Shown piece by piece: positions 8,623 through 51,100 of a DNA stretch of 64,000 bases; the first letter of the stretch is position 1, and each line of letters opens with the position of its first letter. The notes under the pieces are model-generated. The model searched no databases. It saw only the letters and a program-made list of their open reading frames with translations, and was not told where the DNA came from. Position numbers and translations under genes: made by a program. Source of the stretch: Sipunculus nudus (lineage: Eukaryota; Annelida; Sipuncula; Golfingiida; Sipunculidae); NCBI GenBank assembly GCA_026874595.1, contig CM049313.1:53555659-53619658 (forward strand), given 5' to 3'.

Positions 8623-11600
8623 ATGAGGTTAGTATTCGCCCTAGTAGTTGTCGGCGCGCTGGCGTGGACCGCCCAAGGTAAGTCGTATTTTAATTATTTA
8701 AAATATATGAACAAATAAGCATATTCTCGGGTAGGTCAAATTTACTAGTGTGTAAATCTCTTTAAGTGAATATTATAACATTTAAATCTTTATTGGCAAT
8801 GTTAGTGTCGATGCCAATTGAAAGCACAATTCAGTTAATATACTGTCGAAACTCGGAAAATATTCACAAGAAGCTGTGAAAAATAAGTTTAAATAAAGAA
8901 AAGAATTTAAGGTAAATTGCCACATGAGGGAATAAGACGTGTGGTCCAATTATTTGAAAGCCTTGACCAATCCTTAGCATAAACTTATTTCCAGTATTTT
9001 ACATTTTTCTGATTGCGTTATTTTTAGATGGAAAATTTCTTAGGGGCCAGCTTCGCGGGGGTAACTTAGTGGGGGCATTTTGTTTTTGCGTGTTTTTGGT
9101 GGCTGTGAATGGTTATTTCCAATTAAAAGCCAGATTTTTTCCCCAGCAGTTTGGATATAGCAATTGTATGCAGCCGATCTAAAATATATCTAGTACTAGA
9201 TCACCTAGAATTGAGATTAAATGGAACAGAAGCTTTACTTAAATTACTATTGAGTGGTTATCATTTTGGTTTAAAGTTTGTAGTGCTCTATAGTATATAA
9301 ATATTTAAAAAAAACTGAAAACTGTCACAAATGATAAAAAAATTATCCGGCTCCCTAACTGTCCGCCGCTTGGTCTGTTGAAATGAGTTCAGCATTGTAA
9401 ATGACAAATATAGCCTGTACTTATTGCAGACAAGAGCTTATATTTGACCTGCAGTTGCCACTTTAATACACTCGGAAATCAATCACAGGTTACCACGTAA
9501 AGTGATATTGTTGAACAAAAGGATTCATGCTATAGAAACCTGAGCTAAACTGAATTGCACTTGGTAGCCAGCCAAACCTAATTGGAACCCCCAACCCCCA
9601 TTATTTTACGGATTCCTGTAAAAATTAAATCTTCTTAACTCCCGTGCTCTCATACTCATTTGGAAACCCATTTTCGTAGAATTTGTGCAGTTCAAAACAA
9701 AAACTTTTTTTATCTAACCGCCTCCATTTTTTATGCTCTCTTATCTTATTTTCGAAGTATGTACATCTGCAGTGTTCCATTTCGGGTTGGAACTACGTGG
9801 CAGGCGGTAACACTCGCTTCCTATAATGTTATGTTTGTATTCTGGCGCGCCCAAGTTCGGTGTCTACTGCACCTGCGGGTCCTCAGTGTGTAATCAACCC
9901 CATTGCTGGGTCAAAACACAGAACTCTACCGTGAAAATCTCACTGCCTCTTCTGAGATTTGAACTCACGACTTCCCGCCTTTACCCAGTGCTCTACCCCT
10001 GAGCCAAAGAAGCCGACAGTTCCACACAGGTTAATATTTATCGCGTAAACATGAGTCATCTATTGAATATTGCAGCTTGATTGGAAAAGATGAAGCTGGA
10101 TTGGAGTTGGGTTTAGTGTTTCAGTATAAGTGGATTTGAATGAAGTGACATTTTTGTGGTAATCCCATTGTATTTGAGCTGGTTAAATGAATTTGAATGA
10201 CGTGACATTTGTGTGGTAATCTTCACAGGCGGCAGCTTCTCTCGAGCTATCGGTGCGATCGCCAGGTCTTCCAAAGTACGTAGGCTTGAGAGCCTGATTT
10301 TCCACGGTCTGACCTTGGCGGACATCAGCATGGGGGTCACTCATATGGTCATGAAAGGCTGCGAATACGAACCGGAATTGTGTACCATCAGACCGGAAAT
10401 TGAAAAACTTGAAAAGCAGGTATGTGTAATTTGTGCAGGATACTTTACATAAATTGGAAAATATTGTCATAGAAATACAATTGTCAGTTTTGGGGTAATT
10501 TTCTCAGAACCTTTAACATTAAAAAAAATTCTGGAATAGTGTAACAGTTTCCGGAAGTATGTTAAACTTTCCAGAAATATATTGGAAATAAAGACATCTT
10601 GAAAATCATTATTGCAATTGTCTTTCGAAAATTATTTTTGCAATTGTCTTTATTTCCAATATATTTCTGGAAATTTTTATAAATATTTGACTTTCATGAT
10701 TTTTCTTTCATTTTTGGAATAAAGGAAAATTATGACCGTTAAGGGAAGACTTGATTCCAAAGACCACTTGGAAGCACCTTACTTAAGCTGAAGCCCTTTA
10801 CTCGTTTAAATTTCATTCTTCAGACAGTGGTCTAGGTAATGGTCGAAGTGCATGTGCTTAATGACAACTGCCGGAGTAAGGGGATTCTTAAATGAAAATT
10901 TTCACATTACTTGTTTAATTTGTCTATCGGGTTAACTAATTTTAATTTAATGCTTGATTCAAATATTGCTATTTTTATTGTATAACTTAATTCTTGGAAT
11001 GTTCATGAAAGATAAAAAACCGGGAACACTGTTAATAATAATATATAATGAATGGCAAATACGTATTTATGTGTATAATATTTAATGGGTTCTTATTTTT
11101 TATTTAAACTAAAGATTCTGATTAAATAGAAAATTTCATAAAGTATCAAAAAGTGGACATTGTACTTGATTTAGATCGTGTTAATACATTGGTGTTTATA
11201 CATTTGTACAAACTGGGTGTTGTGAACGCAATACATTAATAATCAAGCTTTTTGTCCCCCGCTTCCTTGGAAGGAACAGGCGCCATTGATTTCGGTTTGT
11301 CGGTCTGTCCCTCTGTCAGTCTTTCGGTTTGTCAAGCCGTTAGGTTTACGTTTCTGTGCGATAACTTTCCTTAATATTATCTGATTTCATTCAAATATGG
11401 GTCCGTGATTGCTCTCGTGCTTACCCTGGTTGGGATTTGTTTTGGTGTCTGTCTCACAAGATAATTATACAAAAGATATTTAATTTTTATATGATGAATT
11501 AGCGCATTTATTTTCACTTATCACCAATAGTTGTCGCTAGCGGTGGACATAAACTACTTAAATTTTGTTCAGTAACTGCCAGGTGCTGCCATCTTTTTAG

Positions 11601-14600
11601 CGTGATTAAAACTATTTGTAATTACTCGCCAAAGACTTTAAATCATCCCGGACTTGAAGCGGGAGACAGGCATTTCTTTAATTTGTTTTAGATTTATATT
11701 GTAGATCGCTCATTCTGTGGGTGTTAAATCTGTTTTATCTCAACTGGCATTTTTGTCAACTGACTTTTTTGTCAAAATACACTTGTCATTGCAATACCTG
11801 AAAATGAACAATGGATAGTTCCTTTTTAATCAAACGTTGTAGGTTGAAGATATTTCCAAAAATGTTAAGACCAAGGCGGACGAGCTGGAGGCGCTCGACA
11901 CCGCCAACAACGACATGTACACGTCCGTGAATCAAGCAAACCAGAACAACCGGGCCATCAGAGATATCCTGCTGCGCATCAGCGAGTTCTCCGTAGACCT
12001 GATGACAACACTAGCGGAAGTGACGGCGGTACAGAGCGTTGACGTGGACCAGGTGAAGCTTGACGCGTACAGATTGGGTACCAGCGCCGATCTGGCGAAG
12101 GATAACGTGAACGCATTAAAGGATGCTACGGAAAAATACTTCAAAATGTACAATACACATTTCCTAGCCTTAGACCTTGGCCCGACCTTGACCTACTACG
12201 CATATTTGGCGGGAGTTGAGATGAAGGCGTACAAAAAGAAGCATAACGCTAAACCTCCCAAGCTCGCGAATGTTGACAGTGGCATCCAAAAGTCTACTGC
12301 CAGCCTCGGCAAATCTGGGGGTGTTCTGAATAAAGTCCGCTCTAATACGAAATTGAAATATATGAAGGTTAGTAGTCTCAAATGTCGTTTAAATATAAAT
12401 ATCCAGGTGTTAATTTCATGTACATCAAATGTTTTTGTTGTAATAAAACCTGAATCCAATCTTTGTTTTGTCGATAACAACCTGAATGTGAAAAAAAAAA
12501 ATCCATTATCGTTAATCTATCGGTGTTTATATAAATCAGTTAAGGATGAAATACCATAAGTAATGCATTGAAGCGGTATTCAAGCGGATTCTTTATATTG
12601 AAATCTATTAAGTTTGGCAATGTTATATTGTCTGATAGTTAATTCTCATGAGAATAATACGCTAAACATAGCCTGACCAATTAACAAATTCATGTGAGGA
12701 TAATCGGTAGACAAAAGTTTATACAGACTGTAATTGTTTGGTAACATTTCATATTAGCTCCGCAAACTGTTAAGTCATCTGAGCTACAGCGATCACCCTT
12801 TGTCAGTCAACCGGCTGGCCGTCCGTCCGTTAACAGGGTACCTTTCATGGCATGACTGTAGAATAACTAGCTCAACTCCCTGAAGCACAACACTTCTGTA
12901 AACAGAAAACGTTTTGTTCAGCTGCTTGTATCTTAATTTTTTCCAACTTATAATTACCTGCCTCTTACCTCTCTAATACATGAATTCTAAACATCATACC
13001 GTCAGTTTAAGTTCATAACTTTATCGAGACCGTGATTCTCCAGTCGCTCTTAAATGGTAACCGTTATACCAAGAAACTTCAAACTGTACATCCAGGTAGG
13101 TCTCAGGCATCTTTTCTCCGAAACCCGAAATTAGGTTATGGTCACCCATATCCTCAAGACTGCAGACCGAAAACATGATTTTTTTAGCACCCTGAACGAC
13201 AGATGGGCACAAATCGTATGCATTAACCATGGAATCTTCTAACGCAATAAACTGAGATCCTTGGCAATTCTACTTGGAAACCTGAAACTAAGTCATGGTA
13301 ACCAGGTGGACTCGCCGCGAATGAGGCTTTACCTTATCTTCATTTACTAATTTAATATTTCATATTTTCCGAAATCATACATACGTGACCGAACATCTGT
13401 GAACATTACTTTTTAAAGCTCCAAATCTCAGAGATGCTGGATACACACCAACATCTAACCCTTTTTTTTTCTAGACCCATTCCCCAAATGCCCTGAAAAT
13501 TTCGGCTTAAGTTTTGGATAACGTTATGTTTGAGGACGCGCGCGAGCACACACACACACGAACGGGAATCAACGCTTACCTTCCGGGCGTAGGCAAAATT
13601 AGCCGAACGTCATGGCCCATGGGCCTCTTGTTTTTGTATTGTAATACAAAAGTTAATTGATGCAAGTCGGCAGAGGCGGTTCCAGTATTTAGGAACAGGA
13701 GGGGTCAAACCCAGTGCCAGCGCAATAACTTGTATTTAACATTAGGATGTAATTTTTTAAAGTATTATCTGCAGATAATCACTTAATTTGGTCACTCCAA
13801 TGTAGCAAAATTCTTTTCAGACTGCATTAAACGTCGCATTCAGAGGAACCTTGTACGCGGCCAGCATCGCAAACTTCGTGTTGACTGCTAAGAAGTCTGA
13901 AGAGATGTTGAAGAGCCTGAAAGAGACCAAGGCTTTACTGGAGGAGATTATCGCTAAAAATACTGAGGTAGGACTTTTTCTTCTATGCTTTCAGGAACGA
14001 GACTTGTTTTTAATCATACTGAATCAGGAGACGAATGTTCATGGAGTACGTGGTTGTACTAACACGCGATGATAAGGGAAGAAACTCGGGAGTTATGAAA
14101 GGAAATTAGGAACAGTTTACACAAAATGTGGTTTTTGGCCGAGCGTACTAAGTCATCTGAGCTACAGCGATCACCCTTTGTCCGTCGTCCGTCCGGAAAC
14201 TAAACTGTATATCCATAGAGGTCTTAGGCAAGACTCCTTTGAAAACCTTAACTTAGGTTCATGTTGACTTTTTTTATGACCTAACATGATTTTAAGCAGC
14301 CAAACAGTCAGACGGGGCACAATTTGTATCCATTCAGATCTGGAATTGTCTGACAAAAGTGCACGGAGGTCCTAGGAAAATGTCCTTTGAAACCGTTAAT
14401 ACGGTCACGGTGACCTATATTCTGCGACCTACGGTGACCTCATAGACTATTTTCTGAAAGCTATGAGCAATAAATATGAATTTGAGCACCCAGACAGACA
14501 GGGAACAAATTGTATCCATTTTCCTTGGAACCTTCTGTTGTAAAGTCCGGGGGGTCCTATGGGTAAAAAAGACAAGATTAAACGAAGCATCCTTGTAGCA

Positions 14601-17600
14601 CCTAATGAAAAAGGACTTGATATGATACTCAAAATCTTAAATCGAAGCTTTAAATATCTGGTTTTCTGTCTGGTTCTTTGGACCATGGTTGGAGACAGAT
14701 GGTTAATATTCAACTTAATAGAATGTGCTCATATATTTAAATGAAATCTTAGGTTTAGTGACAATTCCATTTTGATAACTTATGCCACCCTTTTTGAAAG
14801 ATATAGAAGCATGGTTTAAGTATAACTTTAAGAATGTTTACACTCCTGATGTTATTTTATGTCAAGAGTTGTTTTTTAATTCACATATAAAATTAGATAA
14901 GAAAACTGTTTAAGTAAAGAAAGGTAGAATGCTGGTGTCACAAATTTATAAGATTATAAAGAATAAGGATAGACAATACACATTCCTGTCAAATACAGAA
15001 CTGACAAAAAAAGTTAAAATTCGGCAAATGCAGTATTAAGTATAATTGACGCAATTCCAGTAACTTGGCAAAAATAGTTAAAAACATGTAATAATACACA
15101 TAATTACATTCCAGATAAAAAATGATATAATCATGAACTTTAGGAAAGTCGCTTAAAAGGTTTACAAAGATATAATAATGGATGTCTGCACTGAACCTTT
15201 AACAACTATTGATAAATTGACTAGACGCATGCAGTGTAACCACCAAGATTTTGTATATAAGCCTTTTAACAAGTAAATACATCAAAATATCTGAAATATT
15301 AAGAATGTTTTAATTTAATCTTTATTCACAGGACTATAACTCTCAATCCACTTTTAAATAGGGAAAGCAAGTAGTGTGCTCTGTTCACCTTGTAAAGTAA
15401 AGAAATAATCATACATCTGTTTATAATTGTAGGGAAGTATAATTGTCGGGGAAATACAACCCATTTTTTTAAATTGGTTGATGAGCAAACACATACCAGT
15501 GACGAAATTTTTTCAGTAAAATATTTATTTTTTAACAATTCTACCAAACCTTTTATAAATATGCTTATATATTGCATACCTTTTTTAAATTAAATGTGTG
15601 CAAATGTAAAGTTTAAGGCCAAACTTCTCTTTTTAATAATAAGCTCTATATTGAACAGATATATACCAGAGAAATATTACTTCCAAGAAAGGAAATATGT
15701 TAATAAAAAAAGTTATCCCCTTTTTGTAGAAAAATTTCATGTTATTCAGGTGAACTTGATGTACGGTAAACGATAATCATATTCTTTTAATGACCTGTTA
15801 TTATTTTTAATGCTATCTGGTTTTTCTATTCAGCAACCACTGTCATATTATGCTCAATGATTGTAAACGTACTGTTTCAAGCTTGAAAGGTAACCATTCA
15901 AGATGATATTTATACCTGGCGAAAATATACAATTTTTCACTGAAATTGGTCTCATTATATAAATATTACTACGCTTGCATTTTTTTTTTTTTTTTGCAAT
16001 TATGTAACGTTAGTCTCTTGTTAAGTGCTTTTGTCTCAGGTCTGATGTATGTGTGTTGTATCCAACATGGTATTGATGTTTATTTAAGCTGTTGTATTGA
16101 AAGGTTCCGGGGGGGGGGGATCCTTGTAAAGTCTCCTTTGAATACTGGAACTAGGTCTTTAATTCTTGTAATACATTACAAAATATAACACATTACAAAA
16201 TACAAAAAAAATGATTTTGATCAGTTTCCAACAATAACACTAGCCATAGGCTATTCCAACAGACAAAATATAACATTAATAAAGGAAATCCGCACCCAGA
16301 AAAATTCAGCTGAGCGTCATGGCCCATGAGCCACTTGTTTTATATACAAGAAGGTAGGATGCAAATGTCAACTGACAAGCCAGTTTTTCTTCAATTTGAA
16401 AAGTTTAATACGTTTAAATAGTAAATATTAGAAAGCGATTTAAACATGTTTATGTGTATTTATGGTGATACTTTCTATATGATACCACCTTCATAACCAT
16501 TACAATTTATACAACCATTGCATAATTCGCGTGAAATTGAATTCGTCCTGCTCTTGAAACTGATCTCCAAACTAAGACTCATCTAGACTAGTGGCCAGTG
16601 TCTGATAATTTTTGTCACATGGTCGCCAGAACAGGTTATGACTAACCTCGCAACCAAAATCGCGTAAGAGGAGATCTTAAGTGCGATTACAATTTTAATG
16701 TACTTAACCATTTAAAATTGCAGGTTATGACGAACATGGCCGACAACATAGCCTATGAGAAGACTGTGAAAGTTGATCTTGAGAATGATTACACAGAAGT
16801 GGCAGAGACTTAGGAAAATGGTACAGACTTTCTTAGGCAGATGCACGACTTCCCAGAGCATCTGTTTAGCACGGCCCCGACAGGGATGCCAACATTCAGC
16901 GTTGACGGTAGGTGGCCTAGTTTTAAATATGAATTAATGTTGTCGTAATAATACTTTTAAAAAAAAACTTCATTTCCAAACTTTATTTGCCTTGATCATT
17001 CAAATCAATTCTGGATCTTTTTAAGTAGACTCGAAAAATAATTTCGATGACGTCTTTAAAAAAATGGGAGGACCTGGAAAATAAGTTAACTTAAAAGAAC
17101 TAGGGAACCTGGGACCATCTGAAATCCGTTCGGTCTACAATCAAGAGCCTTTCGAACGAACAGAAATGAATAAGCGTGCCTCAGTATTTGCCTGTTTCCT
17201 CGCTGTTAATCTATTACTTAACGTATTCGGGATATTGAACCTAACAGGAGAATATTGAACCTTGTATGAGCAAACTATTAAATACTAATACGCTTAACAT
17301 TTTCAATTTACTGAAATTATACACAAATTAAGTCGTTTGACAATATGAATATAGAAATGTAGAACGTATGTAAATCAGGCTCTTTACTGTAAATCATTGT
17401 CTGGACACGCTGATCTCGTGTTATTATAGGAAAATTTATCTTTTCAACAGGCCTAGCTTTGTCGAACATCCTGCAGCGACAAGTTGAGACATTAACATTC
17501 CTTTTAAAGTGGGCAGAGACCTTGGACGGAGTCTACGACCGGATTGCGGCAGTCAGTATCGTAAAGAAGATGCAGCTGGATGTGACCAATATGAACTCTT

Positions 17601-17731
17601 ACATTGTGTTAAGTATTTGTCAGTCTTTGGACAAAACATTGGTCCACGATGACGTCTTTAGAGCTATAGCCTTCCAGTACCCGACGCTAACAGAATACGA
17701 AGGGGTAAATCTGGCAGGATACAAGAGTTAA
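8623..17731 (+). CDS. Secreted helical protein of unknown family, paralogue 1 (six exons, in-frame TAG)
   Basis: Exons: 8623-8677, 10229-10419, 11843-12367, 13821-13967, 16724-16907, 17451-17731. All have GT donors and AG acceptors, and the joined length is 1383 nt (460 codons plus stop). Exon 1 encodes a signal peptide (MRLVFALVVVGALAWTAQG) with intron phase 1. Exon 2 holds a conserved CEYEPELC motif (Cys63, Cys70), probably a disulphide loop. Exon 3 is mostly charged amphipathic helix, with a conserved FLALDLGPTLTYYAYL stretch and then a variable Lys/Ser-rich linker. Exon 4 has a hydrophobic, Ala-rich segment ending in YAASIANFV. The C-terminal exon ends AFQYPTLTEY. The exon pattern matches the paralogue at 22106-29154. 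Codon 336 (16811-16813) is TAG, where the paralogue has Phe; homology continues beyond it. The product is either 335 aa, or 460 aa if the stop is an error or is read through. Function unknown: a secreted coiled protein with one internal hydrophobic helix could be membrane-active, but no family motif proves this. Confidence 0.85.
9939..10017 (-). repeat. tRNA-like sequence (tRNA pseudogene or SINE head) in intron 1
   Basis: On the minus strand the D arm folds as GCTC/GAGC around AGGGGTA, and a T arm TGAG-TTCAAAT-CTCA is present. A 7-bp acceptor pairing GCTTCTT/AAGAGGC closes the fold with one G-T wobble. The anticodon arm does not pair well, so a functional tRNA is unlikely. A related head with GGGGGTAGAGCACAGG lies at about 59645. 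Confidence 0.5.
10569..10672. repeat. 27-bp perfect inverted repeat (hairpin) in intron 2
   Basis: Left arm 10569-10595 (TTCCAGAAATATATTGGAAA then TAAAGAC) is matched exactly in reverse complement by 10646-10672. The 50-nt spacer also repeats part of the arm (GCAATTGTCTTT twice). This looks like a short fold-back MITE. Confidence 0.7.
11237..11700. repeat. Probable interspersed repeat in intron 2
   Basis: A GC-richer block with reiterated GTCTGTC/GTCGGTCTGTC and a TCAAGCCGTTAGG motif, unlike the surrounding intron. Such text is typical of mollusc interspersed repeats, but I see no second full copy in this window. Confidence 0.35.
12765..13637 (-). repeat. Interspersed repeat of the ACAAGTGGCCCATGGGCC family, intron 3
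   Basis: Bounded at the left by GTCATCTGAGCTACAGCGAT and at the right by GTCATGGCCCATGGGCCTCT. These are the reverse complements of the two ends of the element at 31358-32940. The interior (about 13020-13250) resembles the roughly 340-bp tandem unit of that element. Confidence 0.6.
14146..16343 (-). repeat. Long interspersed repeat of the same family, intron 4
   Basis: Starts with AAGTCATCTGAGCTACAGCG and ends with CAGCTGAGCGTCATGGCCCA and CACTTGTTT, the same termini as the copies at 12765 and 31358. The first 400 bp hold two diverged tandem units. The rest is AT-rich with no ORF I can recognise, and includes a run of 11 G at 16109-16119. Confidence 0.55.
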
Positions 17732-19000
17732 CTTTTTCGAATTGTCTCTAATGTGAAGCAAATTTTACTAATGTGCAGTAAATTTGTAGCCATGGTCAGT
17801 TCAGTCTAATTCAGTCAATACTGTGAAACATTTGTCCTTAAAGGTTTGTGATCTTCCACGAAAATCTAAACGTATGGTTTGTTTGTTAAAGATAAAATAT
17901 TAAGTGGCGTTGGCCCTTGCCGTTGTCTATAAGCTGTTAATTTCTCGTTCCTGTTACAGAAAACCTCTGGAAGTACGGATCTAATTCAGGGTGTTGTGAA
18001 ATAATACCTTGTAAAACTCCTATTGCTGTTTGTTTTCTTTACCAAGGTTACCTGAGATTTGTTAGAGAAGAAAGTTGACATACAGGCATAGATGTATGGT
18101 GTAAATTTGCCATTATCATTATCGTTCGAATACTTTTAAAAATAATTTTACATAACATTACCGAAACCTCTAGAACCATAGATATAATTTTAACACCCAA
18201 CCCGCTAGGTCATAAATTAAGTAGTATTAAACCTCCCATGGTGGTCATTATGCAATATTTACCTTTAATCTGAATCTTAGCATACAAAAGATCGTATACA
18301 CTACACGACGATCATACAGGAAATTTAATGGAATAGCCTCCCTTTATGACTTTTAAAAGGATTAGAATTGACTCAACCACATTTTGACTCGACTACATTT
18401 TACTCACTGTATCTAATGTAAATGACGCTTGAATTCTCTGGAATGAGGCCTTTCTCTACGTTTGTAATAAGCATGCACTAATTAGATAAGTCAGTGTAAA
18501 ATTCCAAAAACCTTGTTGATGAAAATGAAAATTCGAGAAATGGAGGCAACGTAACTTCATGTACAAAATAAGGTTAAAAATCAATGAGACAGGCTTAGTC
18601 ATTTATTATATGGTATGAACCAAAAAAAAGATAGGGATATTGTGAACAGCATCTTAAAGAAGCTCAAAATGGCAATAATCCCAATTACATTTAATTTTGA
18701 AGCGGCCCTACAACTGTCTGTGAAATTTTCTACGTCCAAGCAGTTTTGACATCCATCATCCCCCCCCACCGTAACTTTGAATTTAAACTAAACAAGCTAC
18801 CTACCCCACTGAAAAGAAATCCACAAGAATTACTCCCATACAAAAAGATAAAGGACCCAAAAAAGATATTAATAATTATCGGCCTTTTTCTGGGGTTTTT
18901 TTTTTCCTCATTTAGCATGCATATCTAAAACAGGTTCTACATGCTCAAAATTTATAACTCTTAAAAATTATTACCATTTTTAACATGACATAACTCATGA
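17732..19000. other. Intergenic, 3' side of gene 1; no feature recognised
   Basis: AT-rich downstream DNA. No clean AATAAA signal close to the stop codon at 17731 could be singled out. ORFs of about 60 codons at 18730-18928 overlap on opposite strands and have no support. Confidence 0.4.
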
Positions 19001-19006
19001 TCAGTA

Positions 19007-19505
19007 TTGTCACACCACACACGCAGCGGACATATATTCCCGAGTTCTTTCACACAGAAAAGTCCAAAATACCACTCGTTGTCTGAACTGAAGAACACGG
19101 TTTATTCCGGTAACATCCAACAAGTGGCCACCGTCGTCGTTGACTGGTTCCAATCTTACAATAACAACGTCTTCAACAAATACCAATCACGTATATCTTC
19201 TAACGCCCTGATCGGCTGCAACTATATATATATTCTCTCCAGGACTAATACTGTCCTCGCGGAATTTATAACACACCCCGCTCAGTGTTCAACTATATAA
19301 CGACCCGTCACCAGTTGACGCTAGCTTCCAAAATCATACACCGCCTGACCGGCCTTGACACCGCCCTATTTATACCTGGGTAACCGAAACTTCTAGAGGT
19401 CTCTAGAATAATCAAGTCGTTCCTTGTCAAGACTAGCACCTACGGGATTTTCTAGAATTTACCTATTGGAAATTACACATTACCTGAATTCTCTAGAACC
19501 TTCTG
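19007..19505. repeat. GC-richer insertion, possible LTR-like or other repeat
   Basis: A block distinct in composition from its flanks. It contains AACACGGTTTATTCCGGTAA, a promoter-like TATATATATA, and repeated TCTAGA-containing words (CTAGAGGTCTCTAGAATA, TTCTCTAGAACCTTCTG). The organisation resembles solo LTRs elsewhere in the window, but no terminal repeat or target duplication is visible. A 97-codon ORF through it is probably accidental. Confidence 0.25.
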
Positions 19506-20056
19506 TCATCTAATTATAATAAATCATGGTACAGTAAGTCCATTTACTTATATAATAAACAAAATACTTTAAAAAAAATTGGTTAAAGGTAAACTGGTGT
19601 TTTACTATATTTGTCCGTTTATGCCTTGGGTCCGCAGTCACTGTTGTATATTTAAGCCTTCCTGATACACTTGTACTCCTCGCGATTTCGTGTAAAATTA
19701 AACCTGAGACACAAGCACATTCATCCCGCTTATGCATCCTTCTCGCGTGTGTTTCTCTAACTATACTTTATTTTGTAACAAATTATTAGATTTTGTTACA
19801 AATTTAAGTTGCAAAGGGACTATTCTTTTAATCGCCAACCTCTACATTCCTCCCTTTGTTGGTTTTAACTGAATACTTCAGGTGACTATATAGCTTACTC
19901 CATATAAAGGACTACAAATCAGCGGGCCCGAATACAGGACTCCTATTAAGCGGGTCCGATGCTGTGTACTGAGTGATCAAAACGTGGATTTAACTATCTG
20001 GCTTCACAATGTATATTGTACTGTCAACTATAAAGTTCAGGAACATTGAATATTGT

Positions 20057-20192
20057 TGCGGGTAGCACATAAAAAGCGGACAGAACTGTCTCGCTGGTGA
20101 AGCTTGCTTTTCTAGCGAAGCGGTTGGTACCCCGGACATGGGCGCCATCGACATGGGTTCGAATCCGGGATCGGCCCCTGAGCAATTTGTAT
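20057..20192 (+). repeat. tRNA-derived SINE, copy 1
   Basis: Internal polymerase III promoter elements are present: A box TAGCGAAGCGGTTGG at 20113-20127 and B box GGTTCGAATCC at 20156-20166. A hairpin TCTCGCT...AGCGA precedes the A box. Reverse-complement copies occur at 43001-43149 and 60793-60950, with a partial copy at 33820-33880. Confidence 0.7.
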
Positions 20193-21734
20193 ACGTAACA
20201 ACATAAGCATGGGATATGGCTTAGCAACACTTCTACAGAAAATCTTAAGATATATATTAGAACTTCTCGTATATTTTCCGGGCAATCTAAGGAGTGCAAT
20301 CTTGCACTACACAGATGCTGCTTTGGTCATTGTTTGCATATTTTGTACTGAAAACCGGTTTGTGTATCAGTCTTTACGACGTGTATCGGCCTTGTCCTCT
20401 GACAAACCTCAAATTCATCAGCCTCGGTTCTGATGAACCTCTTATACATAAAATTTCGATCGAAATTCAGTATTGAGAAGAGTATTCACATGGTTGTGAA
20501 TTCCGTGTAACTTTTATCAACATACAGAGATTTTTTTATGGAGAAAACAGTCCGGGCTTTATCGACATGAAAGTCCAAGTCACTGAAGAGCATTTGACGG
20601 CAGCTGTCGGTTGTGGGCCCAAATAAACATGGGTCGCCTGGTTGTTTGCTGTAAACTATCACTATAAATCACACTCTCTATAATTGCTTCAGATTAATAC
20701 GGATTATCCTGATACTAAAGTTTGCTAGATTGAATAGGTATAATGATATTAATGAATCTGTTTTATTTATGAAATTAAATTAAAGCAAGTACACCGAAAA
20801 AAATGGAAAATCTCAAACTGTATTTATTTATTAAAGTAAGCTGTATGAACTCGTCATTTAAATGAAAAGGTATAAATTGATTCTTAGTGTTTGCTTATAT
20901 AAAAAAGTAATTTGATACGGGTGAATTTATGACCTGTATTTCATCTCCTGCTATGACTGGTGGCATTATTTTCCAGTCCTTAAATTACTAAGTCCGTATA
21001 TTTTTATCAGCATGAACATAAACAGTGTATTGAAGAAAGTATGTAAAAAAACGGGTTGCCGGGGGGGGGGGGGGTGTTATTACCGAAAGCAGTCTTGGAT
21101 TGGAGGCGTTACATTAGGTTTTCGCTTAAATCTAGTTCTGGGAATATAAAGGCAGAATTAACTGACAAATCTTTTGGTTTATTTTTCTGCAATTTATTTT
21201 TCTTTTGAAAAAACTTTTTAAGCAGTGAGGGGATGCTTGGGAAAGCTACCCTGCCCGTGTAAACTGACCAGCTGAGACATGGACCTTATCTGCTCGACGA
21301 TTGGGACATTCCAAAGGAATAAAGAAAGAAGCCCCCGTCCTAAGAAACACCCGCTCAAAATCCAACCTTATGAAAAAATCTTCCCAAAAAATCACATTAA
21401 CAGTCACATAATAAAAAGTTGCAGAAGACTTAATTTCCCCGATAGGTGTGAATGGGATATAGGAATAACTCCTTTATCGTTCCTCGCTTAAGGCTTATAC
21501 CCTATTGTTCCCTTAGTTTTCATAACAATACATCTTAAGCGTAAGATTAAGCTATAAGAGTCAAAGCTTTTCCATTACTCAGATTTTTGCACAATCCAAA
21601 ATCCTAAATTAGCAATTGCTAAATCAAATTGCTTTGCTTTTATTCACTGTTTTGTACCTTAATAACATGTAAATAATGCAAATTAGGAAATTTAATATCA
21701 CTGAATTTAATCTATTTTTAGAAGATTTTATTTT

Positions 21735-21935
21735 ATCTTAGTTCTTCTTCTAGTAATTTTATCTCAGTGCTAGAAGAAGAAATGCATCTTTCATCAAAAT
21801 CATTAGAACATTAGAAAGAGTTCTTCTGATAAGTTCTAAAAGAGTTAAATACATCTTACATAAAAACATATTAACAGTTGAAGAGTTCTTCTAGTAATTT
21901 CTTTTTTAGTTCTAGAAGAAGAAATACATCTTACA
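21735..21935. repeat. Two related hairpin repeats with TTCTTCTAG / CTAGAAGAAG arms
   Basis: GTTCTTCTTCTAGTAATTTT is mirrored by GTGCTAGAAGAAGAAATGCA at 21736-21790. The same arrangement recurs at 21880-21932, each followed by ATACATCTTACAT or a close variant. This is a small fold-back repeat downstream of gene 2. Confidence 0.5.
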
Positions 21936-22105
21936 TGAAAGGAAATCATAAGACCAGTAGAACAGTATTTAATTAGATAATTGCGATCACAATTATTAGA
22001 TGTTCCTAAATCTCAGTATCTGTGACACAATGAACCAGTTTCGTGCTTTCAATATTCTCACCGTATTCCGGTTTTATCCATTGTCTGCATATAACTTAGT
22101 GTTCT

Positions 22106-25100
22106 TTAACCCCTGTACGTATCCATGACTACACCATTGTAGTTCGTCATCTTTGGATACTGGAAGGCTACTGTCTTCATCAGCATCTCGTTCGTTATTG
22201 CCTCATCCCTCGTGATGGTTTTAATGAGGTCGAGGACCGTTGCAGCGTTAAGCTTTGTGACATTTAACTTGAGATTCCCCACCAAGTTGACGGCAGATAT
22301 CCGCTTGTATACACCAACCAGTGTGTCAGCCCACTCGTCTACAAACTGTAGCGTCTCTTTTTGTCGCTCAACGATGTTGTCCATGGTGACATCTGTGGTG
22401 ACAATTTGACAATATATTACTCTAAATCGATATCTAAATAAAATAATAAAGGAATTATAAGATTTCAAACCACACCAGAGCAAAAATCAAACACTTGAAT
22501 GAATTAATATGTCTAAATATTGGAAATGTAAAATAATGTTTTACAAGTGTCAAAGCCAGCATCATAAACACATTGATGTATCCTAATTATTAAGAACGTT
22601 CGTGTGACCAGATGAACATTTAATGGAAAATCAGACAATCCCTAGACCACAATGTAACCAAACCAACTGCCTCTCCTCAATTTCCTTACAGCATTTTTAT
22701 ATGATACAATTGTAATAGGTCATTTACTTTTAAGTCAAGATTCATAAGATGAAAGAAAGAATGCCACTGCAAACACTGCACAGAGACACTTAATGACAAA
22801 TTAGTACCCGATAAGTGCAACTTCTGTGTCTTGGATATAACCAACTCGCTTAAGCGTTGGTTATAATTACATGCAAGTAATGTGATAACCGTGTCTACAA
22901 AATTTCGGAATGATTGGTGTAATGGTTCATGAGATAATTGGCAGGTGGACCATTTTAGTAGTCCACCCTCCTATATGCATTGGACTAATTAATCAGAGAA
23001 ATGGATTTATTTTTTTTTCCTTATTAAAGCAGACCCTTCCAAGTAGAAAATACACCTTAAAGCCAGCTATACACCTACCATTTCTGTAGAAGTCATGTTA
23101 TTTATATTTCTAGCTTACTCTGCATACATATAAAGTGACTTTATGTAACTCATGTTAGAAAATCATTTAACGTATGTATGAGCCTGTTTACAATGTGTTA
23201 GTAAACACGGAACATGCGCCAGTATAGACAAACAGAAAAACTGTGTAACCTAAGGCGGTGGGATGCATATTTGCGGAAGGTAAATATGTTATAAACATGT
23301 TATAGCACTTGGATATAAACAAAATAAACAGCTTGCGTGATATGGGATTGGAGTTTTCTGGCCTATAAATTGTTATAAAAGGTTAATGGTCTTCGCTTTT
23401 GCTGATAAACTTTAGATATCGAATATGCCCCTTTAAGCCCTGTAACCGGACTAAAACGACCATCAACGCAATTTTTTTCAACTAATTTGAAATCATTTTA
23501 ACAAAAGTACCGTAAAATCAGAACGTCAACAATGCGTTACTTACCGTCAGCGGTGAAAGCCGGGGTATTTGAAGGGAAGGATTCAAACAGGGTCTTAGGG
23601 AAATCATTCATTTGTTTCAGGAAGTCAGTAATGTTCCTGAACGTGGTAGAAATATCAATGTAGTTCTTATTCAGCTCAACCTTCGTCGTCGCTTCCTTTG
23701 TTATTTCTGCGTCCAGTTCAGTTATTACCTACGTGAGAAATTAAACGTGATGATGTTTGAGGTTAAACAGTATCATTGGTTCCAATTTTCGAACAACTTG
23801 TCTAAAGTTTCCCGATTTGTATTAACCTGGCCAGACAATAATTGGTCTTTTAATTGTTGAATTTTGAATTAAGTCATTTATTTAAAAGTTAACCTTTAAA
23901 TATGCGAATAAGATTTATTACATATATATATATAACAGAGACAGGAGTTACACATTAAGAAAGAGAAAGATCGGGAGAGGACGAGAGAAAGAATGAGAGT
24001 GAAAGAATCATTGGGAAAGAAAAAGAAATAGAGAGAAAGAGAGCGAGAAAGAGAGAGGAAGAGTGACGGAAAGAAAGAGAGAGACAGAGAGAAAAAGAGG
24101 AAGAGAGCGAGAAAGAAAAGAGAGAAAATAGAAAAAGAGGAAAGAGAGTAAGGGAAAGAGAAGGAAAGAAAAATGAAAGAGAAAAGACAAGATTAAGATG
24201 GCAATAGGAGAGAGACAGAACGTGACCCTGGGAGAAGGAGAGACAGAGTTAGAGAGATGGAAACAGAGAGAGAGACACAGACAGACTAAGAGATAAACAA
24301 CGAGAGAAAGAGAGAGAGAGAGAGGAGGGGGGGGGGGGCAGAGAACAAAGGCATGCTGATGGTTCGACATAACATACAAAGAGACCTGCCTGTGAGTAAT
24401 TAGCCAGTACAGAGTCCAAGTCACTTTTCCTTTCCTTCAGTGAACGCAACTGCTGTTTTGAGGACTGCACTGTAGTTACAAAATTTGCAATACTGGCGGC
24501 ATAGAGGCCTCCTCTGAAAGCGAGGCCCAGAGCAGTCTGTAAAGATTAATAAATAAAAAACTTCATACATCATAGAGAAAATATATAATATATAGAAACG
24601 TAATTGTCATTACTAATTCAATGTGATAATTTTCATTGATCTGGATTGTAATTAATGCATGGCCTTAAATATATATGTACAATACGCTATGGTTATCAAG
24701 CCCTACAAATATCTAATACGTTGTTTGTTTTCTTACAATTAATTCACAATGATGATTTTGGTGACTAGATATGATTGGAACCCTAAAGGTCCACAATTTG
24801 GGCCCCGCCATGACAAGTTCCTGAAAGGCTTACGGGATGTTGATGGATCTGGAAAACGACAGAGCACAACCTCTCATCGGTGTCAATCTTCGGTACAATT
24901 TTCATGGCAAATGCTTGAAAGATTCTTGTGACAATGCGCTTGTAAGGAATTCTTAGATCGCTGCCTGGTGGCCATATTTTATTTCTGATGTGTCTTAAAT
25001 ACGATTGTGCACATCCTCCCAGGGTTTCGATCGAAAAAGATTTTCCCGGCCATATCTTGAAAGATTCTTGCAACGATGAGCGCGAAAGAGCATGACGGAC

Positions 25101-28100
25101 GGACACGAGGATGGACAGACAGACAGAAGCAAAGAAAACCTGATTTTCTTAAGGGACTCGCATAGGCGGGGTCCTGATAAATGCTAGCTTATAAAATACC
25201 TGACTGGTGCTAATAAAATAACTACAATAGTAAAAAAAAATTGTAAAGGCTCGATTTAGTTAAATTCTACTTGCCTTCATATACGAAAGTTTTGAGGTTT
25301 TGGTGGACTTTGAGGTAGTGGAAGGCTCTCTTGAAATGCTGTTGCTCGCCTTGGCTTTACTATAAGCTTTGCTCGTCTTGGTTATACTCCTCTTGGGCCT
25401 TTTGCTTGTTGTGTCCACGACTTTAGAGGGCGGTTTATTCTTACTAACTGTTGGAGGTGATTTTGTCGGGGTTTGCTTGGAACCCATCAATTTAGTACCA
25501 GTAAGATAAGTGTAGTACGCCATTGACGGAGCAAGGTCAAAAAGAAGGAAATTTTTAGTATACGTGTCTGAGTATTTATCCAATTCTTCCATGGTGCTTT
25601 CCACGTTTTCCTTGGCAATGTTAGCTTTAGATAACAGTGTGTATGCATTCATTTCCGTTTGTTCAATGTCCACTTTGTCCACGTGCGTCACTTCCTGTTG
25701 AAGACCTATCTCCTCCACAGGGAAGGCCCTGATAGGCATTAAACGGCTGATCAAGTCTTTGTTTAGTCGGTTGGCCTTGACCAAGGTCATTGACATGTTG
25801 TTACTGGCGACGTGGAGATTTTCCAGTTCTTTGGTCTTTATTTCCATCGGTATGGATTTTTCTTCAACCTAAAAGATGTTTCATAAAATGAACATATACT
25901 AACGAAGCATATATATGCATTAAGTTTGCACAAGGAAACATATTCTAAATACTTATTTTGAATAAGCATATTTTAATTGATTTCAAAATATTCTCTCATT
26001 TAATGAAATAACAGTAATGACAAATCCATTGAGGCACTATTTCTGGATAAAGATGAACAACCAAATAAAGTTCAAATCTAAAAATTACCTATTTATAGAT
26101 TGGATTCCAGTAAAACAATGACACATCCATACTTAGAATAGCTGTATTAATAATTGTTTCCGTGGTTCGCAGAGTAAAAAAAAAGTTTTCCTGTTTTGGA
26201 GATAAAAAAGAAATGTTCTGTGATATGTTTGTTGCAACAACATATAATGTAATGATAGTTTTCATATATTTATATCAAAAGATATGGCATCTCTACTTCT
26301 AATTCTGTCCATTACTGTTTTATACTGATTGGTAGAAACATTTATGCATTCTCATATATATTATATTTAACGATACATGTACGGTTTGAATAATTATTTT
26401 CATACTTGGCATGAAAAAATAACATACATATTACAAAGTTAAATCTAGTTTTAGTTTAGCTGGCTCATAGTCATCGGAGCTGTAGCGATCACCCTGTGTG
26501 CATCGTTCGTTCCTTAACAGCTAGGCACAAGTCAAAACTGATAGACTTGGAACAGTTGTAAAAGAAATCAAAATTTATGTTACGGAACCTAATAACAACA
26601 GATCATGTAATCAGATGAAATGTCGAGGGGAATGAATAGAGAAGTCAGTGGTTTTTTGGTAACAAATAATTAAAATTTATTCTTAGAACAATCCTAAGAT
26701 TACAATACACAAAATTAATACGATTACACAGTATACCAATAATAAAAATGTACAGTACCAGAGTGTCCGGATCCTAGGCTTTGATTTCTGGTACCAACAC
26801 CGTCACAGCTCAACAAGAGTCCTTTAACATAATTTATCCATATGAACAGTTCATGTAAATCTTCTCAGAGAATAGTCCGAATAAATCTTGAAAACATTCT
26901 GTTGTATTCCAAAACTGAAGTTCTGGTAATAATCCCAAAGGCAAACTGAAGACAACCCGTATTTAATCTGTAAAAATCCGTAGAAGATCTGTGAGATCTG
27001 CAATTATCGGAGAGGTAAAAAAAAAAAACACTGACGAGAGAGTCACATTCTTCCGTGTCCGCTGGTTTTTTTTCTCTCTACCGGCTCTAAACACGGCCAA
27101 ATTTGGACTCGAGTGCTCGTGTATGAACATGCATATCTGAATATTACTACAAACTTACGGGCAGTCTGAAGGCCTATTTATTTATTATTGTAGTAATAAT
27201 CATACCGTACAGTTTATTTCGAAGGGACTTACATTTATGAGTTATATGCTTCCGAATCGATTTTTCCCACCCTGTTCAATTTTAGTATTTATATTTAATC
27301 CATCGTTGGGATCAAGGTAAGCCGTCCCGGAGTTAAAATTCATGAATATTTTGCATCGGTAAACAGATGTCCGTTTTATCCTTAGAGCGTTGCCGTGGTA
27401 ACGAGTACTCGAATCATAGTCGACTAAAGGTTATCGGGTACAACATTTTGTACCCGTTTACAGCCCTAGTTGGAAAGGTCACTGATTTTAGATAACATTT
27501 GTAGATGAGCAACACTGGTGATACCATCTACATTTTCTTCTGTATCACGTTACAAATTGTCTATATTGAAGGCACATATTAAAAGAATGTGCATCACCAC
27601 TGACATGTATTCATCACCTTGGGAAATTTTGCTAGAGTACGTTTATAAGTGTGGAGATAAATATCATATTTAGATATAGAGAGCGTTACTTTTTCTCCTT
27701 GGGTCGAGAGAAATATGATCAGAATAGCGTAACCTTTTCCCCAATTAGGGGGAAGATATGATCTGTAGCTGTAGATACGTTACTTTCCCTCAGAAGACAT
27801 AGTCGGTCATGTAGATAACGTTACTTTTCACCTGGTGAGGGGAACATAAATTATCTTTAGATGGAGATAGCCATACCTTCACCCGGTAATTAGGAGAAAA
27901 ATATGACCTGTAGATGTAGATAACGTTACTTTTCACCTAGTAAGGGGAACATAAATTATCTTTAGATGGAGATAGCCATACCTTAACCCGGCAATGAGGA
28001 GAAAAATATGACCTGTAGATGTAGATAACGTTACCTTTTCCCCTAGTTTTCCTAGTTGTGGTTTGATTTCACAGATCTCTGGCTCGTATTCACATCCTTT

Positions 28101-29154
28101 CATAACAACATGGGTGATACTCATAGCGAAGTCAGCGAAGGTCAGGCCATGGAATATCAGAGACTCCAGACGTTTGAGCCTGGACGCCGTGGTGCTGGTA
28201 TTGGTCCGTCCACCAAAGCTCCAAGCTTAAGTACAACAGATTTGATGACGTCTAAGCCATATGTGATGAGGCAGAAATAGATGAATATTAATCAGATTAA
28301 AAATTGTGTTTTTTTCCTGAGTTCCTTCGCTCCTTATCCAGAACATTAAGGATTAAATATGGGAAATCAAGCGTCATATACAACAAAGGAAATTAAAAGA
28401 AATACTAGAAGAAATTGGGTTAAAACAATACAGAATGTCGAATCTTAGGTTCGAGATTTAATTTTCACTCACAGATAAACATGGAACAGCTGTCACTACA
28501 ATTGATCCATTGTGCATAATAAAAAATATACACAAGCATAAAAAATCAGACACAATGCTTTCGTATGAGAATGTGCAAAAAATATTTTTCATAAACCGTC
28601 TGTTGCTTCATATATGAAGATATACATCCATACGCTCCTATTCTTTATCATGTTATGGCTTTGTTTTTACATAAAAGCGTTATACTGAGCAGTTTGTGCA
28701 AAATTTTTGATAAAATTCGTCAGCACATGTACAGCAACCTTAATTTCAATACGTTCTCTTGATTGTTGATACGTGGTTACAACATGGAACTAAATGAATC
28801 AGATCAGCATTCTTGTAATACCATTAAAGGTTCTCATTTTCTGTTTTACCTGGTGCCTTCAGCTTTACGTTATCGAATTAGTGAATACTTTGATATAACT
28901 TAAAAAATAAAAAAAGCACTCTATTCATACGATTAAAAATGTAATAGAATAGCAGCTGCAGTAACATATCATCAATTATAAAGAGAAATGTGACTATAAG
29001 CATACGTTTACATCATCAATTATACAAATTTAAAGACATGTGGAAGATTCTTAGAGCAATGCCAGCAGATGGGTTGATTAAAGAAAAAATCCAGGTTACC
29101 TTGAGACGGAAAAACAACCACAAAGATAATCATAAAGACTGTCAAAACCTTCAT
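22106..29154 (-). CDS. Secreted helical protein of unknown family, paralogue 2 (six exons, intact)
   Basis: Exons in transcript order: 29154-29100, 28225-28035, 25868-25275, 24536-24390, 23728-23545, 22392-22106. The joined length is 1458 nt (485 codons plus stop) with no internal stop. Exon 1 encodes a signal peptide (MKVLTVFMIIFVVVFPSQ). Exon 2 has CEYEPEIC (Cys63, Cys70), the only cysteines I find in the protein, so probably one disulphide. Exon 3 has helical heptad-like sequence, FLLFDLAPSMAYYTYL, and then a Lys/Ser/Thr/Pro linker longer than in paralogue 1 with a furin-like RPKR (239-242). Exon 4 has LYAASIANFV. Exon 5 has TDFLKQMNDFPKTLF. Exon 6 ends AFQYPKMTNYNG. Exons 1, 2, 4 and 5 match paralogue 1 exactly in length and phase. 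Introns 3 and 4 begin with GC (GCAAGT and GCAGGT); the frame works only with these. The gene converges on paralogue 1, about 4.4 kb from stop to stop. The reaction or role is unknown. Confidence 0.88.
23058..23440. repeat. Probable degenerate MITE in intron 5 of gene 2
   Basis: Left part (CTTAAAGCCAGCTATACACC) and right part (ATATGCCCCTTTAAGCCC) loosely resemble the terminal inverted repeats of the element at 63175-63643. The interior shares TGTGTAACCTAAGGCGGTGG-like text with that element (there ATGTAACCTAGGCTGGTAGG). Confidence 0.35.
23935..24345. repeat. About 400-bp polypurine tract in intron 4 of gene 2
   Basis: Almost pure A/G on the plus strand, built from GAGA, GAAA and GGAAAGA units and ending in 12 G (24327-24338). 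In the transcript it is a pyrimidine tract between the GC donor at 24389 and the acceptor of exon 5. The long minus-strand Ser/Leu ORF over it is a composition artefact. Confidence 0.75.
26578..27110 (+). repeat. Truncated solo LTR, TGTTACGGAACC family, in intron 2 of gene 2
   Basis: Begins TGTTACGGAACCTAATAACA and runs colinear with the LTRs at 52367 and 57099. Shared words are AGAAGTCAGTG, AATTTATTCTTAGAAC, GGATCCTAGGCTTTGATT and TCCGTGTCCGCTGG. Homology fades after ACCGGCTCTAAACACGG, so the 3' end is missing. It is antisense to gene 2. Confidence 0.65.
27690..28045. repeat. About 104-bp tandem array abutting exon 2 of gene 2
   Basis: Units contain GATGTAGATAACGTTAC, TTTTCACCTAGTAAGGGG, AACATAAATTATCTTTAGAT and GAGAAAAATATGACCTGTAG. 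Two units near 27815-28020 are nearly identical, and earlier ones are diverged. The last unit runs into the exon 2 donor at 28034/28035, so donor-like text (AAAAGTAACGTTATC on minus) recurs through the array. Confidence 0.75.
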
Positions 29155-31357: not shown

Positions 31358-32940
31358 AAACAAGTGGCCCATGGGCCATGACGCTCAGCTGAATTCAAGG
31401 AATGTTGAACAATGAGCAAAATGACTGCCAGAGTGGAAAAAATCATGAATTTTGTGAAAAGTCCTTAGAAATGGGTTTCAGTGGGCTTTTGGACAGATGA
31501 CAACTTCATTTGAAGGTCTCATAAATAGAAAAAAATGCGTAAAAATTTGATAAAATAAAGGGAGTGCCACCAGTCTGCAGGAACTGATGAAACACTCCAT
31601 GATCAATATATATCCAAAGAATCATGGCTATCAAGGCATTAGTTATTCAGATACTGGAGCTTTTGTTTGTATCAAATTTTTAATTATTCTTGGGGGTATT
31701 TATGAGCCCTATAGCTCAGGGAATATGGGTAACAGAAACCTAATTTCAGGTTTCCAAGGAGATTTTTCATTAGTCTCCCTGGATGTGAAGTTAGAAGATT
31801 CTAGGTTCAGCAGTTACAGTTTGTGCCATGTTAACAGATGACCACTTCATTCGAAGGTCACATAAATACAGAAAAAATGCCTACAAAATTGAAAAAAAAT
31901 ACAGGTGGCACCACCAGTTTGCAGGAACTGAAGGAACACTCCATGATCAATATACCTGCAAAGAATCATGGAGATCAATACATTGGTTATTCAGATATTG
32001 GAGCTTTTGTATCAAATTCTTAATTATTCTGAGGGGTACTTACTACGAAGGATATGGGTAACAGAGACCTAATTACATGTTTTTCCCACAGACTTTTCAT
32101 GGACCTCACTTGATGTCAAGTTAGAATTAAGAATCTAGGTCAAGCGGTTACGATTTGTGCCCTGTTAACAGATGACAGCTTCTTTGAAGGTCTCAAAAAT
32201 AAAGAAAAAAAAATCGTAAAAATTGGAAAAAAATACAGGTGGCGCCACCAGTTTGCAGGAACTGATGGAAAATCCAATGATCAATATTCATGCAAAGAAT
32301 CATGGTGATGAATGCAGTAGTTATTCAGATACTTGAGCTTTTGTATCAAATTTTGCATTATTCTGGGGGGGGGGGTACTTTGGAGCACCATAGCTCCAAG
32401 GATATTGGTAACAGAGACCTAATTTCAGGTTTTCAAGGAGATTTTTCATTGACCTCCCTGGATGTTAAGTGAGAAGATTTCAGGTCCATTGGTTACGATT
32501 TGTGCCCTGTTCACAGATGACAGTTTCATTGCAGGTCTGAAAAAAAAGAGAAAAAATTCGAAAAAATTGGAAAAAATACAGAAGGGGCCACCAGTCTGCA
32601 GGAAGTGATGGAACATCCCATTATCTATATTCATACAAAGAATCATGGTGATCAATGCAGTACTTATTCAGATACTTGAGCTTTTGTATCAAATTTTGCA
32701 TTATTCTGGGGGGGGGGGGGTACTTTGGAGCGCCATAGTTCAAAGGATATTGGTAACAGAGACCTAATTTCAGGTTTTCAAGGAAATTTTTCATAGACCT
32801 CCCTGGATGTCAAGTTAGAAGATTCTAGGTCCAGCGGTTACGATTTGTGCCCTGTTAACGGACGGCCGGACGGACGACGGACGAAGGGTGATGGCTATAG
32901 CTCAGATGAATTTAAGTCAGCTGAGCTAAAAACTGTTATA
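31358..32940 (+). mobile_element. Interspersed element with four internal 340-bp tandem units, specific to copy A
   Basis: Begins ACAAGTGGCCCATGGGCCAT then GACGCTCAGCTGA, and ends near GGTGATGGCTATAGCTCAGA then AAGTCAGCTGAGC. Tandem units start at about 31567, 31911, 32246 and 32588 (each at CCACCAGT[CT]TGCAGGAA) with a period of 335-344 bp. Each carries TCATGG...ATTCAGATACT[GT]GAGCTTTTGT. The duplicate at about 54460-54510 lacks the whole insert (GCAATTA...CCAGT...AATGTCACTGGA), so it inserted after the duplication. I see no coding sequence for a transposase. Confidence 0.75.
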
Positions 32941-48180: not shown

Positions 48181-51100
48181 CAAAACCGTTTCGGGGCGGC
48201 CGAACAATCATAGCTGCGTTTAGGAACACCATCATACCGGATCGAAAACTGACTTTATCCGCCCATCCGACCTGTCCTTAACAGGTCGTATTGTTGTTTT
48301 TGGAGTTGTTACTCAACACGTTTTGTTTATTCGTTTATGCCACTGCATAATCTGCAACTCCTGCGAGAACCACCTGTCTGACGATGCCTGTTGAAACAGA
48401 CCATTCCCCGGCCGGATTTGTCTGCGACATATGCCTTCGCTCCTTTACAGCCAAACGTGGTCTCTCAGTTCATCAAAGGAGAATGGGTATCACGCCAGGG
48501 CTGCCGACGATAACCAAGCGAAACCCAAGGCCTGATGGGACGAGGAGGAGAGCTACGCCCTTGCCTTCCATGAGGTCCAGTTACAGGCCCAAGGACTGTC
48601 AGCTACCCAGATCATCAATGCCTTGGCAGCGTCGCACCCGTCTCGCACCCGCGAGGCAATCAAGTGCCACAGACGCCGTTAGGACCATAAAGACCTCTTC
48701 TCCAGCTGAAGGAGTCAAGACCTGCCTCAGATTCCGATCAAAAACCACCCTTGGCCGGATCACCAAAAGAATCGCCCACTGGATGGAGTGCAGCCGACGC
48801 CGACCCCAGCGAGGAGTGTACGTCTCCGGGTAGTACTAGAGAAGCTTCCGTTCTTCCGACACCTGTAGTAGAGATGTCTCCCCAAGGGGCCACCGCAAAT
48901 ACTCCGCCAACGGCCGAAGCCATACCACCGATGCCAGCGATCAGCGCTCCCGGAACATCAAGTACTAGACGAGACCGAGCCGTAAGTCAAGTCGGAGGAC
49001 CTCAGCGAGACACCCAAGCGATGTCGTCTACCAACAACTGTACCCACCTATCACCCGAGTACGACCTGTGGAGGGATACCATGGATCGTGTGGTCAGCAG
49101 CGACATCCGGAGAGGTGTCCTCCCCAAGGCTCTGAGGGACATTTGGTTGACGGACAACGAATCAATCCGGGAAGCCGTGACCAAGGACTTCATCGAATGG
49201 CTGGGATGTCCCATCACTTATACGTCCAAGACTAGAACGCAATCCGGGATACCACCCGACTGCACTGGCCGCGCCAGGAGGAGGCAAGAATACCCTATCG
49301 CTGAAAAAAAGTTTAAGAGGAACCGCACCAAATGCGCCCGTGACATAATCAGCGGGCAACTTGGATCGAGTTGTTCTGTTCCCCTGCAGATACAAGAGCC
49401 CTTCTGGAGGAGCGTGATGGAGGGAGATTCAGGAACAACCAAGTCCATGGATATTGGCCAATCCAGCCACTGGGAGATTGTCGCACCGATAGCCGAGGAT
49501 GAAGTTGCCCTTCAATTGAAGTCTCTCAATAATGGATCCCCTGGTCCTGACGGGATCACTAAAGAAGACCTCAAAATATCAACATCCAGCAATTGGCAGC
49601 CAGATTCAACCTATGGCTTCGATGCGGCATCCCACCAAATCAATTGAAGTTCGGCATTACGGCGCTGATCCCCAAGGTTAAAGACCCAACCGAGCCTGGG
49701 CAATTCCGCCCCATCACGATGGGATCCATGGTCGGCAGATTATTCCACCGAGTTATAGCGCGTCGCGTGGAGACGCACGGGACGTTCAGTATCAACCAAC
49801 GTGCCTTTCTGAGAGGTGACGGGATAGCGGGAAGCATCTACTCCCTGCAGACGATAATAAAACAAGCCAAGAGGGACCTTAAGCCGCTGACCGTCGCCTT
49901 TGTTGATGTTAGGAAGGCATTTGATTCTGTCACCCACGACGCCATCCGGATAGGTGCCCTCCGATGTTGGATTCCGCGCCTGTTCGTGAACTACATCTCC
50001 GATCTATACGAGGGCTCCGAAACCAGACTCCGAGTTGATGGATCCTTCTCCGGCCCCATCAAAGTGACCAGAGGCGTACGACAAGGAGATCCATTATCAC
50101 CCCTGCTATTCAACGCAGTGGTCGATAGCGCCCAGGAAGGTCTGGACCCAGCGCTCGGATTCAACATTGGTGGTGATAAGGTAAACCATCTCGCCTTCGC
50201 GGATGATTTTGCCCTGACATGCAGCTCTCCCAATGGTGCCAGGCTGCTGTTTACACATCTGGAGACAAGTCTTGCCAATCTCGGCCTTTCGTTGAATGCC
50301 GCGAAATGCGCCACCATCCAGATCGATGTTCACGGCAGGAAAAAGAAGTGGTTCGTCAGTCCGAAGAACATCTTGAAGACCAGCAACGGTGAACAAGTAT
50401 CTGCCCTCAGTGCCAGCGCAACATACAGATACACGGGTACCCAGCTCCGCGGAGGACAAGCCAGCGGCCCCAAGTGTATCGTGGATCTTGAGGTGAAGCT
50501 CCAGGGCACTACAAGAGCGCCACTGAAACTGCAGCAAAGGCTATACCTGCTGCGGTATCACATCATTCCCTCGATCATCCATGAATTGACTCTCGGCCCT
50601 CTACGGAAGTCGACCCTCGAGTACGTGGATAAGCTGATTCGGTCAACTGTCCGATCGTGGCTGAAGCTACCGAAAGACACAACAACCAGTTACCTGTATG
50701 CCGACCCCCAAGACGGTGGGATCGGAATTCAGCACTGCGGGATCCAAATCAGTTTGCTGCGCCTTAGACAACTCGAGAGATTTGCCAGGTCTGCATGCAA
50801 CATCCAGCAGGCCATCTCGACCACATCCGCTTTCCAGGATGAGTTGGCTAGATGGGACGTTCCTCCGAAATACGCTGGTGTACCGATCACGAATAAGAGC
50901 ACTGCTGCAGCGGCTTTCCGAGACGTGTTACACCAATCCGTTGATGGGCGAGGGCTCAGTGAAACAACTCAGTGGGATCAACCAGTCTGTTGGATCAAGT
51001 TCCCCGGTGCCATGTCTGGCCGCAACTTCATCCAAGCGGTCAAGCTACAAGTAAATCTGATGCCTTCTGAGGTCCGATGTGCCAGAGGTCGCCCAGAGCG

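Follow-up and report, generated by a model that had tools for sequence, protein, structure and literature searches.

Two convergent genes in a stretch of Sipunculus nudus DNA, with nearly identical exon layouts, raise the questions of which protein family they represent, whether their exon structure reflects constraint, and how their products might act. The window (the whole stretch of DNA analyzed, 64,000 nucleotides) holds gene A (8623-17731, + strand) and gene B (29154-22106, - strand) tail to tail, and our gene models bear out the coordinates, the convergent orientation and the five common introns with their phases given in the initial annotation. On the + strand, gene A comprises exon 1 (8623..8677, 55 nt, predicted signal peptide), exon 2 (10229..10419, 191 nt, holding KGCEYEPELC), exon 3 (11843..12367, 525 nt, with a predicted helical region, hydrophobic segment 1 and a basic linker), exon 4 (13821..13967, 147 nt, with hydrophobic segment 2 and the beginning of the next predicted helical region), exon 5 (16724..16907, 184 nt, with a stop codon inside) and exon 6 (17451..17731, 281 nt including the stop). 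On the - strand, gene B comprises exon 1 (29100..29154, 55 nt, predicted signal peptide), exon 2 (28035..28225, 191 nt, holding KGCEYEPEIC), exon 3 (25275..25868, 594 nt, with a predicted helical region, hydrophobic segment 1 and an enlarged basic linker that carries RPKR), exon 4 (24390..24536, 147 nt, with hydrophobic segment 2), exon 5 (23545..23728, 184 nt) and exon 6 (22106..22392, 287 nt including the stop).

The five introns lie at matching places in the two genes, with phases 1, 0, 0, 0 and 1 in both, and the exon lengths (55, 191, 525/594, 147, 184 and 281/287 nt for A/B) agree with the earlier account of equal exons of 55, 191, 147 and 184 nt and a middle exon of 525 against 594 nt. 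That account ascribed the difference in the middle exon to growth of its linker. In the alignment, the 69-nt difference does resolve into two gaps, of 7 and 16 codons, both within the Lys/Ser/Thr/Pro-rich linker. The last exon, not listed there, differs as well (281 vs. 287 nt). Protein identity is moderate, as had been stated, at 38% (184/484; E 5e-126). A dN of 0.52 against a dS of ~2.2, which is saturated or nearly so, indicates that A and B were kept as coding sequence through most of their history. A and B are inverted (tail-to-tail) gene duplicates: adjacent homologues with common intron positions and phases. Judged from splice sites, phase and homology, the exons of each gene appear to be joined as modeled, and on the same sequence grounds both appear to be real genes. 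Their equal exon lengths are ordinary inheritance by duplicates, for which special constraint is not needed.

All five introns of gene A are GT-AG. Introns 3 and 4 of gene B have GC donors (window 25274 and 24389, directly after exons 3 and 4), where the equivalent introns of A have GT. B intron 2 contains a 105-bp tandem repeat in 2.3 copies (27809-28047), which at one end extends over the donor and the final 13 nt of exon 2; by eye, a donor-like sequence recurs within the intron. Within A intron 1 lies a tRNA-Phe-like match on the - strand (9944-10013), possibly a tRNA-derived repeat, and upstream of gene B is a 345-bp satellite-like repeat in four copies (31493-32859). A GC-rich block at 48351-51547 contains open frames at 48351-48833 (C2H2-like finger, below cut-off, E 0.006), 48691-49647 (in a different frame) and 49563-51212 (reverse transcriptase, RVT_1, E 1.3e-29). 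The block resembles an interrupted copy of a non-LTR retrotransposon, which we take to be of the R2-like kind.

A whole-genome search (1.43 Gb, 153 contigs) with B located a third gene, C, whose mature part lies on another contig (C9:20827978-20829135, - strand) in an open frame of 433 codons with no internal stop. C is homologous across nearly its whole length to B (23% identity, E 4e-29) and to A (23%, E 9e-29). Its mature part occupies one exon, which begins at a splice acceptor at the same place and phase as intron 1 of A and B; intron 1 is the sole shared intron, and introns 2-5 are absent. A candidate signal-peptide exon with phase 1 and donor GTAAGT lies ~3.9 kb upstream (C9:20833172-20833112, 61 nt) and is more hydrophobic than the two other candidates that a looser scan found in the 9.6 kb upstream of C. 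A stricter signal-peptide-exon scan of both strands (207,404 bases from 103.7 kb) gave six rows: one first exon from each of A, B and C, and three that overlap one another at a single simple-repeat site. The signal peptides assigned earlier to A and B stand. C may instead start unspliced, at an in-frame ATG just upstream of the acceptor. Introns 2-5 may have been lost by C or gained by A and B, either direction being possible without an outgroup.

Because the mature part of C has no introns, we reject a frozen exon architecture held by constraint that outlasts sequence divergence, as had been proposed; since C shares intron 1 only, the layout belongs to the A/B pair and not to the whole family. 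Likewise, the landmarks described as invariant hold within the pair but are altered in C, where CEYEPE[LI]C becomes CAFRPNIC, LYAASIANFV becomes FTAYMIYDMT and AFQYP becomes AGLYP; KGC-x3-P-x2-C is common to all three proteins. The initial annotation had not included the third member, the TAG in exon 5 of gene A, the second hydrophobic segment or the GC donors of gene B.

The whole-genome search with B scored 20 candidates and gave at least 12 matches, none of them outside A, B and C. The search with C scored 10 and gave at least 2, namely C itself and B exon 6 (E 0.5). Searches by tblastn and by profile across the 303.7 kb surrounding the two loci gave A, B, C and a few stray matches at E above 1, with no further copy below E 1 that would indicate a larger cluster. 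A degenerate pattern built on part of CEYEPE returned 0 matches and is uninformative, because its fixed first two codons fit neither A nor B. It is highly probable that A, B and C form a small family of at least three genes, with A and B as its inverted duplicate pair. In the family plan, a phase-1 intron separates the signal-peptide exon (a candidate one in C) from the sequence of a mature protein of ~410-470 residues (full frame). That protein has one CX6C pair and two hydrophobic segments round a length-variable basic linker, beyond which come another region and the C-terminal part.

The earlier statement that no family could be assigned agrees with searches of Pfam, NCBIfam, PHROGs and PDB sequences, which gave no convincing match. 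Against Pfam (hits listed up to E 10; HMMER filters drop most above 0.1), every hit of A (searched in two pieces), B and C was below cut-off, the best being BAR_3 (E 0.0002, first piece of A) and COX14 (E 0.0008, C). All NCBIfam hits of the first piece of A and of B were also below cut-off (best E 0.0034), PHROGs gave weak matches of unknown function for B and C (best E 0.0036), and PDB sequence searches with B, the three-protein alignment and C gave nothing below E 0.19. Weak generic coiled-coil matches appeared in both the profile and the PDB sequence searches. Among the part of the literature covered, no title or abstract opening described the family, and five peptide strings of A and B had no match. 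At the sensitivity used, A, B and C thus appear from their sequences to be a family of at least three genes without assignment. As a separate matter, a bacterial or viral source was considered and set aside: pattern-seeded scans, which miss distant relatives, confirmed no relative among 165 candidate stretches on prokaryote genome contigs or among 169 and 2 candidates on viral contigs.

Gene B is intact. Gene A carries an in-frame TAG at codon 336 in exon 5 (16811-16813, + strand), so that as assembled it encodes 335 of ~460 residues and lacks the C-terminal part. The TAG lies 94 nt upstream of the last exon junction, a distance at which nonsense-mediated decay would be expected. It is about an even call whether gene A escapes permanent breakage, the TAG being either an erroneous base or a null allele that segregates, with full-length A and B in other individuals. 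The exons, splice sites and reading frame are unbroken on either side of the stop, and the evolutionary pattern does not differ before and after it: dN between A and B is 0.53 before and 0.49 after, and, with C as outgroup, A-specific differences number 34 before the stop and 16 beyond it, against 27 and 11 B-specific ones, with no faster change beyond the stop. Against this, the TAG stands as assembled in the sole copy seen, and both tests compare old duplicates and would miss a recent loss. These tests do not tell apart a recent stop, an allele and a base error as the possible origin of the TAG.

We then consider what the proteins might do. Windows of 19 residues were scored on an interface scale with signal peptides excluded, and the two most interface-favoring windows start at residues 189 and 260 in A, 189 and 283 in B, and 153 and 215 in C. 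These fall at alignment columns 199-217 and ~283-311 in all three proteins, flanking the linker, so the single hydrophobic segment of the initial annotation was an undercount. Among 2000 shuffles, the two windows were reached by 1 and 2 in C, by 429 and 476 in A and by 169 and 185 in B; they thus exceed shuffles in C only. On the same scale, the window at residue 41 of B is a near tie with segment 2 (-2.89 vs. -2.91). On the Kyte-Doolittle scale, the maxima of 19-residue windows outside the signal peptides (1.28 in A, 1.39 in B and 1.22 in C) are all under the usual transmembrane cut-off of ~1.6, and windows at residue 41 (A, B) and 359 (C) outrank one or both segments. Any case for a special meaning of the two segments would rest on their common position.

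The helical layout proposed earlier holds with low confidence for the A and B proteins. In favor, a scan limited to 3.3-3.8 residues places the best helical period at 3.50-3.54 for both the N-terminal and the middle region of A, B and C, and a predicted structure of A exon 3 alone is helical, with a mean pLDDT of 50 and a pTM of 0.25. Among the helical regions of the proteins, windowed helical power strongly beats shuffles only in the N-terminal region of A (1/200); it does not in that of B (82/200), where power at the strand period exceeds that at the helical period (2.58 vs. 1.51). The B linker, expected to be loose, was reached by 0/200 shuffles in the same test. Linker identity is poor between A and B (12/48) and between A and C (2/39), though not between B and C (12/39). 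RPKR in the B linker, which we take to be a furin-like motif, does not occur at that place in A or C; in C, RNKR stands immediately before segment 1.

In the mechanism we propose, each protein would be secreted as a soluble helical bundle with both hydrophobic segments buried. Contact with a target surface, or oligomerization, would release the segments as a hairpin into the membrane, with the basic linker as the loop, and the likely role would be in defense or in a secretion that acts on foreign cells. The membrane activity suggested earlier is kept as a possibility. We hold the whole explanation, a duplicate family with a membrane-acting hairpin, tentatively, and rate membrane action through the hairpin as unlikely and pore formation as less likely still. 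We lowered our estimates for the hairpin mechanism and for the whole explanation because the Kyte-Doolittle result and the helical-power result for B weigh against them; none of the family matches supports a membrane role, COX14 for C being below its cut-off.

The main rival to the hairpin is a structural or matrix coiled-coil protein (of mucus, shell, egg coat or similar), whose helices would oligomerize, whose basic Ser/Lys/Pro linker would bind acidic polymers or be modified, and whose segments would form the bundle core. The best helical period near 3.5 residues, the Lys/Ser/Thr/Pro-rich linker (longer in B), the weak generic coiled-coil matches and the lack of any Kyte-Doolittle window of usual transmembrane strength all speak for such a protein, and we give it a substantial, though less than even, chance. 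It accords less well with the interface-favoring windows, which coincide in the alignment of A, B and C and reach their greatest strength in C, the member that has diverged furthest, or with the poor conservation of the linker in the A-B and A-C comparisons, B-C being the exception. Another candidate is a soluble, exchangeable-lipoprotein-like carrier, whose amphipathic helical bundle would bind lipid through the hydrophobic segments and make no hole. It would suit the signal peptide and the interface-favoring segments but is quite unlikely, and the Pfam hits, listed to E 10 (filters drop most above 0.1), include no apolipoprotein family. If the hairpin reading is true, A, B and C would be an unassigned animal effector family with a directly testable fold and activity. 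If it is false, they are a compact example of an unassigned secreted family in which a pair keeps five introns, a third member has a single-exon mature protein and one duplicate bears a premature stop. We consider the exon conservation unsurprising, and the family without assignment, with its possible membrane hairpin, mildly interesting.

Among known systems, class I membrane fusion proteins resemble B in the order of an RPKR motif, a hydrophobic segment and a helical region. Unlike in those proteins, RPKR in B precedes the segment by ~40 residues, and A and C lack it at the corresponding position. Class I fusion proteins also carry a C-terminal transmembrane anchor, and none is seen here: C-terminal Kyte-Doolittle values, at most 0.78 in A, 0.85 in B and 1.22 in C, stay under ~1.6, a standard by which the two central segments fall short too. 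Apolipoprotein L is a soluble helical protein with a hydrophobic hairpin, as proposed for A, B and C, but Pfam lists no match of theirs to its family up to E 10. ClyA-like toxins are presumably similar to A, B and C in size. It is very unlikely, on our estimate, that A, B and C are animal-encoded, secreted, defensive helical pore formers on a ClyA-like plan, in which the B linker could be cut at its furin-like site for activation. In the part of the source available (PMC6162564), ClyA-like alpha-pore formers are described as having a common five-helix bundle, in which the membrane-active region lies between helices 4 and 5, and ClyA, XaxAB/YaxAB, Nhe/Hbl and Cry6Aa show the order predicted for A, B and C: helices, a central membrane-active or hydrophobic part, and helices again. 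Unlike these toxins, A and B are animal genes with introns, and A, B and C have no such family among their Pfam matches (where filters drop most hits above 0.1) or PDB sequence matches. We say that the proteins may work like ClyA, not that they are ClyA, because sequence does not place them in that family and the likeness lies in the predicted order of their parts; that order of hydrophobic and helical parts, with exon 3 of A as the part folded (mean pLDDT 50), would fit the ClyA-like plan.
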